IMG/VR virus record: IMGVR_UViG_3300042471_000941
Coordinates: 1-37,757 of that record
DNA: 37,757 nt
Source: a virus
Direction: 5' to 3' (one strand)
The translations under genes were made by a program, and so were the position numbers. The notes under the pieces were generated by a model, which had not been told where the DNA came from, searched no databases, and saw only the letters and a list, made by a program, of their open reading frames with translations. Shown in pieces: positions 4,325-31,200 of the stretch; within the stretch, counting starts at the first letter, position 1; each line of letters begins with the position of its first letter.

Positions 4325-5002
4325 CTAGCGGTTTGATCTGGTGGCGAGGTAGTGGAGTGCCTGCCTTGTCAGCGGTCGGCCTGTGACGGATGTAACGCCT
4401 CGGGCTGCCAGTGCTCGGGCCGCGTCAGCGTATCCACCGGCATCGGCTGGCATGTGACGGCGGACAAGCTCGGCGTGCGTGGCGGATCGGGCCTGTGACC
4501 GCTCCAGGTTCACCGCTCGGGCCGCTGCCAGGTTCGGATTGCCGAGGATCGCGCCGCTGGCCCGCTTGGCTGCAAGGGCGGCTTTGGTCCTGGCGCTGAT
4601 CATGCGCCTCTCTTGCTCTGCCATCGCTGCATAGATGTGCAGTAAAAACGGGTCCGCGCCGGGGATGTCGCAGCACACAAACGGGACCCGATCGGCCATC
4701 AGCCCGGCGATGAAAGCCACATCCCGGCTAAGCCTGTCCAGTTTGGCCACGATGATCGGGGCCCTGACCCGCTTTGCCGCTGCTAGGGCCGCTTTAAGCT
4801 CTGGTCGGCGGTCGAGAGCATCGGCCCCCTTGCCGGTTTCAACCTCCAGGTATTCGCCCTCGATGGTGATGCTGTGTGCCTGACAGTGACGGGTGATCGC
4901 TTCGCGCTGCGCCTCAATGCCGAGGCCCGATCGCCCCTGCCTCTGGGTGCTGACGCGTAGATAGGCGATGGCCCGCTGTTGCGGTGCCTGTGTGTCTGTC
5001 AT
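4325..5002 (-). CDS. Small serine recombinase (resolvase/invertase type)
   Basis: The product is 225 aa. The N-terminal catalytic domain shows AYLRVST at residues 13-19, with Ser18 the likely nucleophile. KLDRLSRD follows at 87-94, and then the long E-helix region AEQERRMISARTKAALAAK (about 128-146). The last 60 residues (YADAARALAARGVTSVTGRPLTRQALHYL) are the helix-turn-helix DNA-binding end. The length fits small resolvases and invertases, not the 450-700-aa large serine integrases. The ATG at 5002 follows GAGGA; an in-frame extension upstream looks untranslated. It is the only recombinase in the window, so it may integrate the phage, resolve dimers or invert a segment. Its control region contains a 16-bp palindrome. 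Confidence 0.9.
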   Translation of the reverse strand: MTDTQAPQQRAIAYLRVSTQRQGRSGLGIEAQREAITRHCQAHSITIEGEYLEVETGKGADALDRRPELKAALAAAKRVRAPIIVAKLDRLSRDVAFIAGLMADRVPFVCCDIPGADPFLLHIYAAMAEQERRMISARTKAALAAKRASGAILGNPNLAAARAVNLERSQARSATHAELVRRHMPADAGGYADAARALAARGVTSVTGRPLTRQALHYLATRSNR

Positions 5003-5040
5003 GGGATTGTTGTCCTCGGGGTAGGTCGTGTGGTCGCACG

Positions 5041-5056
5041 CTATACGAGCGTATAG
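5041..5056. promoter_or_regulatory. 16-bp palindrome upstream of the recombinase gene
   Basis: CTATACG and CGTATAG flank a 2-bp AG spacer, giving near-perfect dyad symmetry 39 bp upstream of the recombinase start. Each arm resembles a -10 box (TATACG on one strand, TATAGC on the other). The arrangement suits an operator overlapping the recombinase promoter, possibly for autoregulation, or a recombinase binding site. The right arm overlaps the 16-bp motif at 5050-5065. Confidence 0.5.
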
Positions 5057-5065
5057 GATTGGACG
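5050..5065 (+). repeat. 16-bp motif, right copy (CGTATAGGATTGGACG)
   Basis: This matches the minus-strand motif at 4017-4032 at 15 of 16 positions and points rightward, away from the recombinase gene. Its first seven bases are also the right arm of the palindrome at 5041-5056, so the two signals probably share a binding protein. Confidence 0.5.
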
Positions 5066-5710
5066 AGGGGAATCGTTCCAACCCGCCTCGATGGTTTGGC
5101 CGCCTGATCCTGCTCGCTGCCCCCGCGCTGTGTGTGTGCGTGGCTGGCGATGGCCGATGCTTTGGGTGCCCCTCTTTAGACCCCCCCCACCCCCCGTGGG
5201 CCAGGTCACCACAATCAACTATAGGGACCCACCCCCCCTGTCACATGCAATTCCGAAAAGTGGTCATGCCGGATTGCCAATGAACGGCTGCGATCGCTGT
5301 CGGGGAATTTGCAGATTTTTCTCCACCTACCAGCGCCATTTCCCAAAATCAGTTGTGCTGGAATGGGAACGGTTATTGATGTTGGCGTGTGGTTCGGGTG
5401 TGCGACTGTTGGTGCGTGGTGCCTGTGCTGTTGATCGGCTTCGGGGTTTGATTGTTGTTCGGTGTCCCCCGGATTTTTTAAGTTCGGGAAGGATTGCGTT
5501 TCGTATCGCGGTGGGGGTGTGGCTGCGGACATGGTGTGTGGTGAGGTCGTGTGGTGCAGCTTTGAATTTCGCAGAATTTTATTTGGCGGAAAATATTGGA
5601 GGTTGGGAGGGAGTCGTGGGTGGGGAGATTGTGGTGGACAGGTGGTGTTTTTGGGGGTAGGGGAGCGGGGGGTTCACGGTATGGAACTATCTTCCTTTAT
5701 GTATCCGCGG

Positions 5711-8624: not shown

Positions 8625-8906
8625 TCAGTTCGGCCGGCCGGAACCGCCCCGGTCTAGCTGCGCCTCCGCGAGGTCGAGCGCGTGCTTGACGCCTTCCTCG
8701 ATCGCCGCGCGAATCCCCGTCCTCAATTGCGGCGGCGGCTCCATCATCAGGTAGAGGTTGCCGGCCGTGTTCACGATGGCGCCTACAATCACAAGGGCGT
8801 TGCCGCCGTGGCGCGTCACCTCGGCAATCATGGCTTTGGAGATGATTCCCGCCTGCCGGTCGATCTCGGCCGCCTGCTCGTCGGTCAGTTCGTTTTTGTC
8901 GGTCAT
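8625..8906 (-). CDS. Small hypothetical protein with hydrophobic centre
   Basis: The product is 93 aa. An acidic N-terminus (TDKNELTDEQAAEIDRQAG) leads to a hydrophobic stretch ALVIVGAIVNTAGNLYLMM (about residues 37-55), which could be a buried helix or a weak membrane segment. An amphipathic helix follows. AAGGAG precedes the ATG at 8906, and the start overlaps the upstream stop by ATGA. The function is unknown. Confidence 0.65.
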   Translation of the reverse strand: MTDKNELTDEQAAEIDRQAGIISKAMIAEVTRHGGNALVIVGAIVNTAGNLYLMMEPPPQLRTGIRAAIEEGVKHALDLAEAQLDRGGSGRPN

Positions 8907-9412
8907 GTCGTGCTCCTTGGGGTGATAGGCCCAATCATGAACCGGGCCTGTTCAAGCAATTCATTCTCAAACTGGCGGGCAAGCTTCGGATCCGGTTTCG
9001 CCCGCCATTTCAGTTCCCGCTCCGGGGTGTCGGCATCCCATCCGCGCCACCGCACATCACCGACCGCCCGCAACTCGGCCAGTCGCTGTTGCCAGCCGAG
9101 AGGGGCGCCGTAGGGCGCGACCCAGGGGATGCCCCATTTGGCCAAGACTTTTGCGCTCCATTTGCCGTTCCTCATGCGGCAGGACTTGATCTCCTTGATG
9201 GTCGGGATGGAAAACACAGTCCGGCTCTCCAGTGCCCGCTTGGCCTTGATGAGCTTCTTGCTCTTGGGCTGCGGGCTCGCGGCGTCCTTGGCCGCTTGGC
9301 TGATGAAGGCGTCCGCCACGCGTTCAATGCGAGCCTGCGTCCTGGTCGGGAAGGCTGCACCGCTCAACTTCCGAGCGTCCTGCGCACGATCCCAATTCAT
9401 CCGCTTCGTCAC
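8903..9412 (-). CDS. Hypothetical protein following the replication initiator
   Basis: The product is 169 aa and basic in its first 110 residues (KSKKLIKAKRALESR), then Trp-rich (KWGIPWVAPYGAPLGWQQRL, DVRWRGWD). The GTG start at 9412 follows GGAGGG and overlaps the initiator stop as GTGA, so the two proteins are made together. It occupies the position of lambda P, the helicase loader, but no similarity to P or DnaC is visible. A replication role is therefore inference from position only. Confidence 0.65.
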   Translation of the reverse strand: MTKRMNWDRAQDARKLSGAAFPTRTQARIERVADAFISQAAKDAASPQPKSKKLIKAKRALESRTVFSIPTIKEIKSCRMRNGKWSAKVLAKWGIPWVAPYGAPLGWQQRLAELRAVGDVRWRGWDADTPERELKWRAKPDPKLARQFENELLEQARFMIGPITPRSTT

Positions 9413-10203
9413 GACGCTGCCCTCCGTACGCTCAATGCCTGTTCTCGGCTCAGTCCGGCGGCAAGCAGGGTCGGGTCCGCGTTGTCTTCCGGCTGATCGA
9501 GGAACCGGCCGTCGAGCAACCACTTCGCCGGCATAGGGACGAATTGCGGGTCGGCCGAGAACTCGTGTCGCTCAAGCCCGGCCATGATGGCGGCAGGAGA
9601 ATGCTTTTGGGTGACTTCCTCCCACGCTCGCCTTGCGGCCCGCCCTCCCTCCTTCCTTGGGTAGAGGCTCCAGAAGGCGAGAAACATCGCCTCACGCGCG
9701 CGCACGTGGGAGACTTCGTAAGAAGTCTCCTTTGGTTCTTTCTCTTTGGTTCCTCTATTCGGTTTGTCTGTCACCGGTGACAGTGTGGTTTTGTCACCGG
9801 TGACAGTGTGGTGGGTGTCACCCGTGTCAGTGTGGTCTTTCGGCACAGTGTCACCCGTGACACCCTGCTTCTCGGCAATCTTCGCGTCTTCGGCCGCCCG
9901 GACTTCGCTCATAAGCCCGAGATTCAACATACGCCGGCGCGTCTTCACGCCCCTGCGGTGGTGCTGAAACCCATCGGCCTCCAGGTATCCGGCCTTGGTC
10001 AGTTCGACCAGCGCCCGGTACTGAGTTCGGTCCTCAAGGCAGGTGAACTTCATCAGGTTCTCGACGCTGACGTAGATCCCCATGCCGTCATCGTGGGCGT
10101 GGAGGAACAGGGCAATGGCCGTGATCCTGGCGCCCGGCGACAGGTGACGGGGGAGGTTCCAAGCAAACTGCTTGGAGCGGTCGTAGAAGGATGGGTTCGA
10201 CAT
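9409..10203 (-). CDS. Lambda-O-like replication initiator containing the phage origin
   Basis: The product is 264 aa. Residues 15-95 resemble the winged-helix origin-binding domain of phage initiators (NLPRHLSPGARITAIALFLHAHDDG, then YRALVELTKAGYLEAD). Residues 100-165 form a hydrophilic linker. Residues 170-240 form a conserved-looking C-terminal domain (FWSLYPRKEGGRAARRAWEEVTQ, then AKWLLDGRF) often seen in phage replication proteins. The linker is encoded by DNA holding four iterons, an A-rich tract and an inverted repeat, as in lambda O. The ATG at 10203 follows GAGGCG. The protein would bind its own gene and recruit the host helicase, perhaps with the product of the next gene. Confidence 0.8.
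   Translation of the reverse strand: MSNPSFYDRSKQFAWNLPRHLSPGARITAIALFLHAHDDGMGIYVSVENLMKFTCLEDRTQYRALVELTKAGYLEADGFQHHRRGVKTRRRMLNLGLMSEVRAAEDAKIAEKQGVTGDTVPKDHTDTGDTHHTVTGDKTTLSPVTDKPNRGTKEKEPKETSYEVSHVRAREAMFLAFWSLYPRKEGGRAARRAWEEVTQKHSPAAIMAGLERHEFSADPQFVPMPAKWLLDGRFLDQPEDNADPTLLAAGLSREQALSVRRAAS
9709..9869 (-). other. Candidate replication origin: four iterons, A-rich tract, inverted repeat
   Basis: Four 21-bp repeats lie at 9769-9789, 9792-9812, 9816-9836 and 9849-9869. The core of two is the perfect palindrome TGTCACCGGTGACA, and the others differ at one or two positions. In coding direction they are followed by a 38-bp stretch of about 60 percent A+T (9731-9768, A-rich on the coding strand). 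Next comes a perfect 8-bp inverted repeat GGAGACTT/AAGTCTCC with a 6-nt loop (9709-9730). Iterons 1 and 2 are 23 bp apart and so are read in different frames, which shows that selection acts on the DNA and not the peptide. This matches the organisation of the lambda origin. Confidence 0.75.
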
Positions 10204-10360
10204 TCGACGCCTCGCAACACAACAACCTGCGCGACGACGTTGACGGACGGGACGGCAACCCATAGGGTGCGCTCATCCATTGGTGCTCATGTCGCGGCCC
10301 GACTGAACACCGCAGCCTGTCCCTTGGCGGGGATCGGCTGCAACGTCGAGAGACTGAACC

Positions 10361-10392
10361 AAAGGCTCGGACCCGTCAAGGTTCGGGCCTTT
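10361..10392. terminator. Hairpin between the membrane-protein gene and the initiator gene
   Basis: AAAGGCTCGGAC (10361-10372) pairs with GTTCGGGCCTTT (10381-10392) over 12 positions, with two G-U wobbles and an 8-nt loop. The stem ends in A/T on both sides, giving a short U-tract in either direction. It lies about 160 bp before the initiator start in an otherwise compact operon. It could be an attenuator controlling replication gene expression, in the manner of lambda tR1. The short U-run makes termination efficiency uncertain. Confidence 0.5.
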
Positions 10393-10407
10393 GGCGCGTC
10401 TGGGGGG

Positions 10408-10608
10408 CTACTCATCCTCGTCTGGCGCGTCGGGTGCGCACACGATCCAGCCCGCGAATTTTCCGAAAAAAAGTGTCAGAAAAAATGCGTATCCACTGCC
10501 GGTAGCAATGAACCACGCGGCTGGCATCAAAACCAGCACGGCGAGGCCGGCCAGGATGCAGATGCCGGCGAGGTAGTCACGCAGGTAGTCGTCCTGGTGA
10601 GTGGTCAT
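10408..10608 (-). CDS. Small membrane protein with two transmembrane segments
   Basis: The product is 66 aa. Two hydrophobic stretches are visible: LAGICILAGLAVLVLMPAAW (about residues 13-32) and GYAFFLTLFFGKFAGWIVC (about 39-57). The C-terminus is very acidic (APDAPDEDE). It is likely an inner-membrane hairpin. GAAGGA lies upstream of the ATG at 10608. The position in the early operon just before the replication gene hints at an accessory role such as exclusion, but nothing in the sequence proves it. Confidence 0.65.
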   Translation of the reverse strand: MTTHQDDYLRDYLAGICILAGLAVLVLMPAAWFIATGSGYAFFLTLFFGKFAGWIVCAPDAPDEDE

Positions 10609-10638
10609 GTCATGGGTCCTTCGTGCAAAACGGTTGCG

Positions 10639-11061
10639 TCAGCCACGGCTCGCCCCTATGTCACAAGAACCTGGAGCGCGGGTTTCCATCCTTCGCCCTC
10701 GCTCCGCCGGTCGTAGGTCGTGCTTCGCACCGGCACCGACCTTGGGGGTCACCCGAATGGCTGGGGCGCTGTCTCCCCGAGCGTCCCGGCCATTTTTGCC
10801 CCTGGGGTTTCCTCCCTTCCTGACCGGGCCGCGCGCCCAATTCCCGCTGCGGCTCCCGCGTCCCGAGCTCCAGGCCGGCGGCGGGTGCTTCTCGATGGCG
10901 TTGGCGAGGGCTTCCACCCAAGCCAGGATGTCGGGCTGGGGCTGAAACTCCCCGATGCACCAGCCGGCAACAACCCGTTGGCCCGCCCCGATCATGCGAG
11001 CAAAAGCCACCTGCGTGATACCGGTGCGCTGGAGGGCGCTCGCCATCGGCGTCAGTCCCAT
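10639..11061 (-). CDS. Helix-turn-helix DNA-binding protein (Cro-like), with long Arg/Gly-rich tail
   Basis: The product is 140 aa. Residues 6-50 read as a Cro/CI-type helix-turn-helix (TQVAFARMIGAGQRVVAGWCIGEFQPQPDILAWVEALANAIE). The remaining 80 residues are rich in Gly, Arg and Pro and look disordered. Cro proteins are normally 60-80 aa, so the tail is unusual. The start at 11061 follows GGGAGG and overlaps the upstream gene by 10 bp. It probably regulates a phage promoter; the target operator is not known. Confidence 0.7.
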   Translation of the reverse strand: MGLTPMASALQRTGITQVAFARMIGAGQRVVAGWCIGEFQPQPDILAWVEALANAIEKHPPPAWSSGRGSRSGNWARGPVRKGGNPRGKNGRDARGDSAPAIRVTPKVGAGAKHDLRPAERGRRMETRAPGSCDIGASRG

Positions 11062-11393
11062 ATGCTGCCTCCCCCCGTCCGCTCACGCATTGCGGCGTCC
11101 TGGTCGGGCGCCTCGTTCTTGCGATCTCGTGCCGCGCGCAGCCGCTCCGCCGCCTCCGCCCGCTGTTCGTCCGTCAGGGTGCGGGGATCCCGGAAGGGGT
11201 CCGTTCCCATGCGGAAGGGCCAGAGGGGGCAGTGAGCGGACGCGCACAGCAGGACTTCCTGCCGGGCCCCGCACATGCAGGTCTCGACGCAATAGCGCCG
11301 GATGGCGTCCCCGCGGCTGATGCGCTTGAACCCCCGGGCGGCCATGTCCGCCGGCCCCATGTCCCTGGGGTCGATGGGCTTGTCCTCGGTCAT
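11052..11393 (-). CDS. Cys-rich zinc-binding phage protein
   Basis: The product is 113 aa. The core reads AIRRYCVETCMCGARQEVLLC and then CPLWPFRMGTDPFRD. This cysteine arrangement followed by C-P-L-x-P-F/Y-R-x-G is a pattern I recall from conserved hypothetical phage proteins and probably binds zinc. The C-terminal third is a charged helix. The ATG at 11393 follows GGGAGAA and overlaps the upstream stop as ATGA. Its biological role is unknown. Confidence 0.7.
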   Translation of the reverse strand: MTEDKPIDPRDMGPADMAARGFKRISRGDAIRRYCVETCMCGARQEVLLCASAHCPLWPFRMGTDPFRDPRTLTDEQRAEAAERLRAARDRKNEAPDQDAAMRERTGGGSIWD

Positions 11394-12178
11394 GTGATTC
11401 TCCCGAACGTGGTGACTGAGACCCACGGGTTGGCGTCCCATGCGTCGGGGCCGTGGGTGTGGTTCCACAGGTTCCCGAACGCCGATCGTGCCGAACCAAG
11501 GCATTCGTCCGCCGATGTCGTCGCGTCCCACATCCAACCATCGCGTTGGGGATGGTGTTCGTTCGGTGCGGAGCAGCCATCCGGATCACGCGGAGCCCCA
11601 CCTTGGTGAAAGCACTTGCGGCCGTAGTCGGTGAAGAAACAGCCCTCGGCCCGCGCATCCCTCTCGCTGATGTCGTGCAGCCGCTCAACCCGGACAGCCT
11701 CGACCGCCAGCGTGATCCTCGACGCCCAGCGCGGCATGTAGATGGAGGGGCGCCAACGAACGATGGTTTCTGACGGGTAGGGCTTGTCGAAGCCGTGGCG
11801 GGCGCACTCCGCTTCATATCCGCTCGCGCGATAGAGCAGGAAGCCGGGGTCAGTTGTGCCGACAAGCGCAAACCCTTCTCGCACCCACAGTCGATCCCCT
11901 GGGGCGTAGCCAATATGTGCAAACCAGCCCGTGCGGGTGTGCGGTTTCTGCCATTCGAAAGCATCGGGCTCCCAATACCAACAATCGCCATCCGAATTGC
12001 GGAAGCGGTCAGCATTCTGGAGTGCCCGCGCCAAGTCATCGCCTCTCAGCGTGAAAGCCGGACGTTCTGGCGTGGCGAACACACGCGCGCTTGTCAGCGC
12101 CATCCGCGTCATCGTCTTCCGCCCGTCGAGGATCGCGCGGACCATCGGGGCGGAGAACAGGATTGGATGGTCGGTCAT
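11390..12178 (-). CDS. Conserved phage protein, possibly ASCH/PUA-like
   Basis: The product is 262 aa. Landmarks are HPILFSAPMVRAILDGRKTMTR near the start, YAPGDRLWVREGF in the middle, and WRPSIYMPRWASRITLAVEAVRVERLHDISERDARAEG later. It closes with FGNLWNHTHGPDAWDANPWVSVTTF. The same landmarks recur in a widespread family of phage hypothetical proteins whose opening resembles ASCH/PUA-type RNA-binding folds. The link to ASCH is tentative. The ATG at 12178 follows GGAGGGC and overlaps the neighbouring genes by 4 bp. The length is typical for the family, but its function in phage biology is unknown. Confidence 0.75.
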   Translation of the reverse strand: MTDHPILFSAPMVRAILDGRKTMTRMALTSARVFATPERPAFTLRGDDLARALQNADRFRNSDGDCWYWEPDAFEWQKPHTRTGWFAHIGYAPGDRLWVREGFALVGTTDPGFLLYRASGYEAECARHGFDKPYPSETIVRWRPSIYMPRWASRITLAVEAVRVERLHDISERDARAEGCFFTDYGRKCFHQGGAPRDPDGCSAPNEHHPQRDGWMWDATTSADECLGSARSAFGNLWNHTHGPDAWDANPWVSVTTFGRIT

Positions 12179-27717: not shown

Positions 27718-30700
27718 ATGAAGAAGTGGCTCTATGCGGTGACGGCGCTGGCGGCGATGAGTGCCCCGGCGTCGGCACAGGTGGTCAGCACCAAGACCGG
27801 TCAGACCTACACGTTCACGAACCAGGACTGTGACCCGAACGGCCGGCGCCTGATCCTGTTCAACAACGACACCGGGGTGGCGGCTTCGCTGCCCCAGGCG
27901 GGCGCGAACGGCCAGTTCATCTCGGGCTGCATCATCAAGGTGCAGAACATCGGGGATGCGAACGTCGTCATCACGCCCACCACCAGCGCGATCAATGAGG
28001 CGACCAGCTTCACCCTGACGCCGGGTGCGTCGAGCTTCATCGTGGCCGACGCCGGCCCCACGACTACGGGCAACTATTGGGCGGCGGTGGGCGGCGTTCC
28101 TCCTGGCTCGGATGGACGCATCGCGCTGTCGACCATGCCGGCCTACTTCACCATGACGGACTTCTCGGCCAGTGCGCGTCCCGCCAAGCGGCGTCCCGCT
28201 CATGTCACGGTGGCAAACGGCTCGGCCTCGGTGCAGATCGAGACCACCTACTCCATCACGGCTTCCCGGCTGGTCTGCTCGAATGGCTCGACCACGGTGA
28301 CCATGACGCCGGGCGTATTCCCGAACAGCGCGAATCAGGCGAATACCAAGCGCATCAAGCTGCCGGGCTGTGGCGCCGCGGGCGCGGACCTTCAGGCGGA
28401 TGTGACGTCCATCACCTCTGAGGGCGCTACCCAGACCATCGTGATCGGCACGGCTGCGTCGACGGACGTGGACGCGGGAGCGCAGGTCGTGATCGGGCCG
28501 CAGGGCCTGTTCCCCCCCACAGCGTCGGCCCCCTCAAGCCAGCGCCGCTTGACCTACAATGTCGCGATCTACGCGCCGGTGACCTTCGCCGCGGGCGGCA
28601 CCACGGTCACGCTGCCCGCCAACACCTTCGCGTCCTACGACTACACTCAGCCGGGTTATGCGGGCGGCTACCTGTCCGACATCGCCATCCCCAACGCCAG
28701 CGGCGCAAACTGCACCGACACACTGGTGACCAAGGTGACGGCGGTGAACGGCACCGGCGCCATCGCCACGGTGACGGACGCGCCGACCTGCGCTCTCACG
28801 GGCGTGTCACGGTGGACGTACTGGGGGCAGTCCATCTTCGGGCCGAACGATGTGGGCTCCGCCATTGAACTGATCGACGGCGCTTCGTCTGGCACGGCCA
28901 ACCTGGTCTCCACCATCTCGGCGGTGATCGACCCGAGCCATGTGACCATGGCGGCCAACAATTCCGGGGCGAAGACGAACAAGAACACGCGCCTGACCTG
29001 GGGCCCCGATGCCACCGCGCCGTGGGTTGCCATGACGGCTGCCGGTCGTGCGGCCGGCTACCAGTATCTCTACATCCCGGTGAACAAGGCCTACTTCCTG
29101 GCCACGGCGACGCTGGCACAAATCACCTCGAATGGCGCCTCTATGATCTGGTGCGGCGAGGGCGATGTTTACCTGCGCACGTCGCTGAACCTTGCCCGGC
29201 CGGTGTCTCGCGGGTGCAATGCCGGTGTGGCGCCGCCCCTTGGCTCATCGACCATCGTGCCAAACCTGCACCTGCGCACGGCCAGCAACAGCGGCACGAC
29301 GCTCAAGATCGCGTTCATTGGCGATAGCCAGATGACCTCGAACTACAACGCGATCGGGCGCATGACGATCCCGCAGTATGTGTGCGATGCCTTCCGCACG
29401 CAGAACCCGGGCAAGACGGTCGTGTGCGACAACTTCGCCGTCGGCGGCCAGATTTGGGGGACGTTTGACCCCACCGGGCCGGACTACGGGAACGGCGTTG
29501 GCGTCCCGCAGGGCAACACCGCGACGCTCCCGGGCTGGTACACCCCCATCACCGACCAGTGGTACACCTTCGTGCAGAATGCGTGCCCGGACGTCGTGGT
29601 CTCCAAACTCGGCTACAACGACGGCTTCAACCTCCTGCTTTCCGCTGTCGAAAACTCGATGAACGTCATGCAGGGATCGGCGTGGCGCACGGCCTGCGGT
29701 AAGAACCCGGACGTGCTCATCGCGACCGAAGGGCCGCCCGGCATGGCGGCGGCTTCCAGCACCCAGAACACACAGCCCCGCGACTATTCGATGGGCTACC
29801 TGCGCTCATGGGCGCTGTCCTGCGAATACCGCTTGGCCAACGGCGGCTGCCCCGGCCTGATCGACATTGGCCGCGCTCGCTCGCTGGCGAACTTGGGCTG
29901 GTCGCAGGACCTGCTGCCCGCCAAGCGCGCTGACTACATCGTGGCTCCTTCGACGGGCAACGATGGCCAGGACATCTCCGATGCCGTCTACACATGGCCG
30001 GTCCCGATCTACGACTATCAGGTCCATATGTCCGGCTTCCGCGTGAACCCTGCGGCGGACGCTGCCGCGTGGTGGGCTTCGGTGCAGTACATCGACTTCG
30101 CTCTCGGCAACGGCGCGTCCGGCACCCCGGAGAACAGCGGCACTCAGACGGGCCTGACGACCCCCTACTCGGGCGGTCATGTTCGCCTGACGCGCGATAG
30201 CGGCACCGGCAACTATGCCGTGCGCGTGCGCACGTTCGACGTGGATACGGCAGCCACGGTTTCGGTCGCCACCACCACGGTGACCTGCGCCGCGGCCTGC
30301 ACGAACATGGGCTTTGACAACGCGACCATTCAAATCCCCGGAGCGGGCGTGGCCGGTGGCGTCTACACGGGCACCATCACGGCCATCAACTCGGCCGGCA
30401 CGTCCATCACCATCACCCCGGCTGTGGATACTGCCCTTGTCAGCGCCGCTGTGACGCTGAAGTTCTACCATGAGCCGGTCCCGACGACGGACACGGGCGT
30501 GCTGGCCACCGGCACTGCGGGCGGCGCCGCCTTTGATTCCTCGCTCTCGTTCAACATCAAGGGCTCGGTGGCCGCGATCTTCGACGAGACCTGCTTCTCT
30601 TGCAGTCCCGTTTGGCAGGGACGCGTCGTGCGCTTTGGTGGCTACTTCCGTCCGACCCTGACTGTGGGCGGCACCTTCAGCCGCTATCGCCTGGGGACAA

Positions 30701-31200
30701 GCGCCAACGCCCTGACGCGCATGGTGGTCGGCTCGCCGGAAGAACCCACCTTCTACCAGGTGTTGGCGTCCGACACTCTGAATTGGGGCTATTCGGAAGA
30801 AGAAGGCGCGTGGGGCGGCGGCGGCTTCAACCACCCTGCCACGCTGGGTGACCAACTGATCATGCCGGCGGTGCTGGGCGCGTTGAACCTGAACGTCACG
30901 GCGGCCCCGGTGTCCTCCGCAGTCAACACGCCTCTGACGGGCTTCAGCTACACGGTGCCCGATCAGCAGTTGTTCACGGCGTTCACTCCGGCCGGCGTGT
31001 TGGCCACGGGCACCGTGACGCTGCCTCGCAACGTGCCGCAGGGCTCGCGGGTGCAGATTATGTCGACGCAAACGATCACGGCTCTGACAATCGCGGCGCC
31101 CGCGGGCTACACCCTGGTGGGCACGGCGGTGACTGCCTTGGCAGGAAACGCGACGGCGGCCTGGGTTCTCGACGGCACCGTCTTCTACCGGGTGCAGTGA
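27718..31200 (+). CDS. 1160-aa SGNH-hydrolase spike-like protein with Sec signal peptide
   Basis: Residues 1-20 form a classical signal peptide: MKKW, hydrophobic YAVTALAAM, and an A-S-A cleavage site at 18-20. Residues 21-520 and 780-1160 are beta-rich spike-like segments. The middle is an SGNH hydrolase: IGDSQM at 534-539 with Ser537, NFAVGG (block II), GYND at 632-635 with Asn634, and VHMSGF at 769-774 with His770. SGNH enzymes deacetylate polysaccharides or esters, and phage spikes use them on capsule or O-antigen. Eighteen cysteines are present, unusual for a cytoplasmic virion protein. AGGAGAAG precedes the ATG. A spike or secreted host-surface modifier are both possible. Confidence 0.85.
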   Translation: MKKWLYAVTALAAMSAPASAQVVSTKTGQTYTFTNQDCDPNGRRLILFNNDTGVAASLPQAGANGQFISGCIIKVQNIGDANVVITPTTSAINEATSFTLTPGASSFIVADAGPTTTGNYWAAVGGVPPGSDGRIALSTMPAYFTMTDFSASARPAKRRPAHVTVANGSASVQIETTYSITASRLVCSNGSTTVTMTPGVFPNSANQANTKRIKLPGCGAAGADLQADVTSITSEGATQTIVIGTAASTDVDAGAQVVIGPQGLFPPTASAPSSQRRLTYNVAIYAPVTFAAGGTTVTLPANTFASYDYTQPGYAGGYLSDIAIPNASGANCTDTLVTKVTAVNGTGAIATVTDAPTCALTGVSRWTYWGQSIFGPNDVGSAIELIDGASSGTANLVSTISAVIDPSHVTMAANNSGAKTNKNTRLTWGPDATAPWVAMTAAGRAAGYQYLYIPVNKAYFLATATLAQITSNGASMIWCGEGDVYLRTSLNLARPVSRGCNAGVAPPLGSSTIVPNLHLRTASNSGTTLKIAFIGDSQMTSNYNAIGRMTIPQYVCDAFRTQNPGKTVVCDNFAVGGQIWGTFDPTGPDYGNGVGVPQGNTATLPGWYTPITDQWYTFVQNACPDVVVSKLGYNDGFNLLLSAVENSMNVMQGSAWRTACGKNPDVLIATEGPPGMAAASSTQNTQPRDYSMGYLRSWALSCEYRLANGGCPGLIDIGRARSLANLGWSQDLLPAKRADYIVAPSTGNDGQDISDAVYTWPVPIYDYQVHMSGFRVNPAADAAAWWASVQYIDFALGNGASGTPENSGTQTGLTTPYSGGHVRLTRDSGTGNYAVRVRTFDVDTAATVSVATTTVTCAAACTNMGFDNATIQIPGAGVAGGVYTGTITAINSAGTSITITPAVDTALVSAAVTLKFYHEPVPTTDTGVLATGTAGGAAFDSSLSFNIKGSVAAIFDETCFSCSPVWQGRVVRFGGYFRPTLTVGGTFSRYRLGTSANALTRMVVGSPEEPTFYQVLASDTLNWGYSEEEGAWGGGGFNHPATLGDQLIMPAVLGALNLNVTAAPVSSAVNTPLTGFSYTVPDQQLFTAFTPAGVLATGTVTLPRNVPQGSRVQIMSTQTITALTIAAPAGYTLVGTAVTALAGNATAAWVLDGTVFYRVQ

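Follow-up and report, generated by a model that had tools for sequence, protein, structure and literature searches.

Does the replication initiator gene of this uncultured phage also contain the site at which its replication starts? The question arises from a short segment of the window (the whole 37.8-kb stretch of viral DNA analyzed here), where four palindromic boxes, an A-rich tract and a perfect inverted repeat follow one another within the initiator coding sequence, an arrangement that the initial annotation had read as a lambda-type origin. Here, we describe these elements, compare them with known origins and with related viral contigs, and conclude that the segment is very probably (at roughly 0.87) a phage replication origin lying inside the gene of its own initiator and working through the boxes, the tract and helicase recruitment.

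An initiator gene with boxes, a tract and an inverted repeat in its linker

The gene (9409..10203, minus strand) encodes a protein of 264 amino acids, counted from methionine, that was identified by Pfam, PHROGs and a structure model. HTH_36 (1.7e-8) is the only Pfam domain that it matches, while the match to PHROG 270 (replication initiation protein, 3.9e-22) spans residues 11-241 of 265 and so covers most of the protein. Its weaker PHROGs matches are O-like families, and a Pfam scan gave no match to Phage_rep_O (PF04492), the lambda O family. The protein had been called an O-like initiator; by PHROG 270 it is indeed classified as a replication initiator, yet by the Pfam test it falls outside the lambda O Pfam family. 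An AlphaFold model built from six sequences (mean pLDDT 63) predicts a three-part layout, with a winged-helix N-terminal domain and a long helix, a disordered linker (residues 114-164, pLDDT <50), and a helical C-terminal domain that carries the motif F-W-x-x-Y-P-R-K. The linker corresponds to about 9712-9864, the same stretch as the putative origin. A structure search with the N-terminal part of the model brought up MarR-type and DnaD-type winged helices, the best being the DnaD N-terminal domain; no match had E < 0.001, and the winged-helix matches among solved structures were weak.

Along the gene, the boxes at 9849, 9816, 9792 and 9769 come first, about 340-435 nt into the coding region, followed by the A-rich tract (9731-9768) and then the inverted repeat (9709-9730). 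The box farthest from the tract (9849..9862, minus strand) reads TGTCACGGGTGACA on the coding strand, with 1 mismatch, and is inverted relative to the other three as judged by its flanks: together with its flank it scores 89% over 19 nt as an inverted copy versus 76% as a direct copy. The other three also lie on the minus strand. The second (9816..9829) reads TGACACGGGTGACA on the coding strand, with 2 mismatches to the exact core, and the remaining two carry the exact core TGTCACCGGTGACA, one at 9792..9805, read in the frame VTGD, and one at 9769..9782, adjoining the tract and read in the frame SPVT (LSPVT). Four repeats with a shared core had been proposed; four boxes are present, but the exact core occurs in only two of them and the box at 9849 is inverted. 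Counted outward from the tract, the spacings are 23, 24 and 33 bp, in agreement with the 23 bp and the different reading frames noted before for the first two repeats, and the frame of box 1 (9769) differs from that of boxes 2-4. No fifth box with at most 2 mismatches was found anywhere in the window (shuffle mean 0.25).

The tract (9731..9768, minus strand), a candidate unwinding element, is exactly 38 bp long, as previously described, and has 22 A and 1 T on the coding strand. It is the sole 38-mer of the window to reach 22 A or 22 T, and in duplex stability the 60-80 bp segments that start at 9710-9712 are within the least stable 0.03% of the window. Its codons are rare elsewhere in the genome, with AGA at 0.01, GGA at 0.06 and CCA at 0.07 of their synonymous families. 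Beyond it lies the inverted repeat (9709..9730), GGAGACTTC-TTAC-GAAGTCTCC, with a 4-nt loop; it is perfect, as had been stated, but its arms measure 9 bp rather than 8.

This layout closely resembles that of phage lambda. In the lambda model, O dimers on iterons with inverted symmetry open a neighboring 40-bp A+T-rich region (PMC5043065), and other lambdoid phages have the same origin arrangement (PMC7466680). Within gene O of lambda (NC_001416), the annotated iterons span 39034-39118, and behind them come an A-rich tract and an inverted repeat whose arms are GTCAGAG/CTCTGAC. Direct comparison with the annotated ori-lambda bears out the element order and the initiator-linker position that had been claimed: both origins have four two-fold-symmetric iterons, an A-rich tract and an inverted repeat, in the same order and orientation and in a linker midway along the initiator gene; they share their last two box spacings, 24 and 23 bp; and in both the next gene overlaps the initiator stop codon, as P overlaps that of O. 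The anatomy of a lambda-type origin, namely symmetric repeats in the initiator gene, a meltable A+T-rich tract of about 40 bp and an inverted repeat beyond it, is present in full. The two differ in that the box sequences are unrelated (TGTCAC..GTGACA in the window, TCCCTC..GAGGGA in lambda), one window box is inverted by its flanks, the window initiator is not in Pfam Phage_rep_O, and the gene in the position of P has no family match. Because the initiator fails the lambda O Pfam test, our claim is that the segment most likely works like ori-lambda, and not that it descends from it. By their descriptions, two further origins are similar: oriL of SPP1, which has direct repeats and an AT-rich unwinding region inside the gene of its binding protein, gene 38 (PMC6316719), although SPP1 encodes its own loader and helicase, and the lambda-like origin proposed from sequence for Francisella phage KIRK, with repeats in a putative replication gene (PMC7924643).

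Chance tests and close relatives

To assess chance, the protein sequence was kept fixed and its codons were redrawn from the phage's own usage, which this null model assumes, in 20,000 trials. None of the recodings contained at least three boxes, the maximum reached being two, and an earlier recoding of the whole gene agrees for the boxes (0/1000 with three). The 22 A of the tract had P = 5e-5, an A content that is improbable under recoding because the tract codons are rare elsewhere in this genome. For the inverted repeat alone, the probability that the region would contain one of 9 bp was P = 0.019; in the whole-gene test, the longest inverted repeat, of 15, is the pairing of two neighboring boxes and is distinct from this one.

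The only close relatives found are two near-identical viral contigs, L001 and L002, whose initiator is 80% identical. Both keep the four boxes, the A-rich tract and the inverted repeat at the same places; the outcome named beforehand as contrary to an origin, loss of the repeats while the protein linker is conserved, did not occur. Changes in the boxes fall at the center in four cases and at outer positions in two, leaving the half-sites largely intact, and the substitutions relative to L001 include amino-acid changes. In the inverted repeat, the outermost pair is lost and two others are replaced in both arms (C-G by T-A and T-A by C-G), for which a simple count gives a chance of about 0.004 from a single comparison, L001 and L002 being effectively one sequence. 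Among the codons of the inverted repeat, five of ten residues are changed and no third position is. Synonymous change affects 4 of 47 conserved codons in the origin segment versus 35 of 147 elsewhere (Fisher P = 0.02; P = 0.10 for the box part alone). Taken together, several of these tests point to selection on the DNA of the origin segment itself, and the recodings, the half-sites and the compensatory pairs uphold the earlier suggestion of DNA-level conservation.

The same two contigs were returned by a protein scan with the next gene (8903..9412, minus strand; defined by sequence and alignment), which occupies the position of lambda P and begins with a GTG that overlaps the stop codon of the initiator gene (GTGA; in L001, ATGA). 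Its product matches no Pfam family and, at a threshold of 0.01, no PHROG, and its predicted model is uninformative (pLDDT 42). Among the window proteins scanned against Pfam and PHROGs, none could be recognised as a helicase loader, helicase, primase or polymerase. Other genes of the window include a serine recombinase with a resolvase domain (4325-5218, minus; Pfam 7e-25), a weak ArdA-type antirestriction match (2248-2727, minus; Pfam 4e-4, below the curated cut-off) that also matches PHROG 25535, and an open frame of 1160 amino acids (27718-31200, plus) without PHROG match at 0.01 that, by its position, is possibly structural. The window terminase has, among the matches listed, Roseobacter and Paracoccus phages at <30% identity, the best match being an uncultured record at 35%. 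In L001/L002, the large terminase subunit is an open frame of 781 amino acids (9539-11683, minus, in IMGVR_UViG_3300017747_004504) with an in-frame insert of about 138 amino acids after query residue 178 that is absent from the window; it could be an intein, and one Pfam scan detected no intein domain in it.

Proposed origin activity and competing explanations

Box binding, DNA unwinding, recruitment of a helicase and the start of replication at this site are inferred from lambda. On that model, dimers of the initiator most likely contact the palindromic boxes through their winged-helix domain; once assembled on the array, they would bend the DNA and melt the neighboring A-rich tract, and the host helicase would then be recruited either by the C-terminal domain of the initiator or by the product of the translationally coupled next gene. 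The inverted repeat would close the putative origin on its far side.

Another role can be envisaged for the inverted repeat. It may act in RNA, through processing or attenuation, or as a terminator, and so lie outside the origin proper: a perfect stem in a transcribed region would form in RNA too, and its pairing is conserved. We consider this rather unlikely, as no T run follows the stem in the window sequence and ori-lambda has a comparable inverted repeat at the same place; moreover, such a role would touch a single element and leave room for an origin in the remainder of the segment.

That the boxes are autoregulatory operators, through which the initiator or a repressor controls its own operon while replication starts elsewhere, strikes us as improbable. 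Palindromes bound by winged-helix proteins are typical of operators as well, and the N-terminal model does resemble MarR-type and DnaD-type winged helices, with E-values that are not significant. The boxes, however, lie some 340-435 nt inside the coding region, away from the gene start, and the window has no box with at most 2 mismatches anywhere else; operator function also predicts neither an A-rich tract of rare codons nor a covarying inverted repeat. Finally, the view that selection acted on the peptide, favoring a hydrophilic linker of repeated VTGDT units and producing the DNA palindromes as a by-product, is very hard to sustain, for although the linker has this character and some viral matches, such as L033 and the large L042 protein, do contain in-frame peptide repeats, box 1 does not share the reading frame of boxes 2-4, the same peptide recoded yields no more than two boxes in 20,000 trials, the box changes relative to L001 alter amino acids while the half-sites mostly stay, and the inverted repeat keeps its pairing through the replacement of half its residues.

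A recurrent palindrome in phage initiators

Viral contigs were also searched by DNA only for two TGTCACNNGTGACA boxes lying 5-25 bp apart. Such pairs occur in 30 contigs, several of them near duplicates of one another, against a rough chance expectation of 0.004 (assuming 60 billion random bases), and three permuted palindromes used as controls gave 3, 0 and 0 contigs. Paired palindromes in general seem to mark initiator linkers, because two of the three control matches likewise fall in genes resembling initiators. For most of the 30 contigs, the boxes are in the linker of a gene that matches replication-initiation PHROGs, an outcome of this independent search that favors the origin reading. 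The 22 proteins scanned with Pfam include eight with DUF1376, seven with HTH_36 (the window initiator being one of them), two with Phage_rep_org_N and one with Phage_rep_O. A profile comparison found the window initiator similar to a small HTH group, in an alignment that partly reflects the repeated linker itself, and without similarity to the DUF1376 group. The paired boxes of L038, L042/L045 and L048 fall outside any recognised initiator. Those of L042 (3945-3991) and L045 (369-415) belong to the coding sequence of a polyvalent-type protein of very large size, in which a peptide is repeated in frame, and those of L048 (3545-3583) read TGTCACGCGTGACA, with no open frame of at least 60 amino acids found across them.

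Distant relatives of the window initiator in L003, phiPsal1 and L062 have an array at the same place with other sequences, and by the same test no significant palindromic array was detected in the distant family members Galaxy, ArV2, Cd and BhaS171, so that on present evidence the box array is not shown to be universal across the family. Blastn of the region against phages gave no match, a scan of genome contigs yielded one distant locus, and scans with the single proteins of L033 and L024 found no contigs other than these two. Nor did a pattern search find a match in 369 genomes of one class; this carries no weight here, as prophages of this kind may simply be uncommon in the sample. Literature searches with four box variants retrieved one unrelated paper only, and none of the papers searched joins DUF1376 with an origin of replication.

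We tentatively raise the possibility, at somewhat less than even odds, that TGTCACNNGTGACA is an iteron shared by phage initiators with different N-terminal families (HTH_36, DUF1376, Phage_rep_org_N and Phage_rep_O). If so, this would imply either a common mode of recognition across families without detectable sequence similarity, or a shared factor that reads the box; alternatively, the box may have been selected repeatedly as one that suits both DNA symmetry and a coding linker. Its recurrence raises a testable question, namely how unrelated initiators might share a putative binding site, and provides a simple search handle for phage origins. Recoding, rare codons and covariation likewise offer DNA-level tests by which such origins may be spotted in uncultured phages. 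The segment described here would carry the lambda plan, with its origin housed in the gene of the initiator, over to an initiator that Pfam does not place in the lambda O family.
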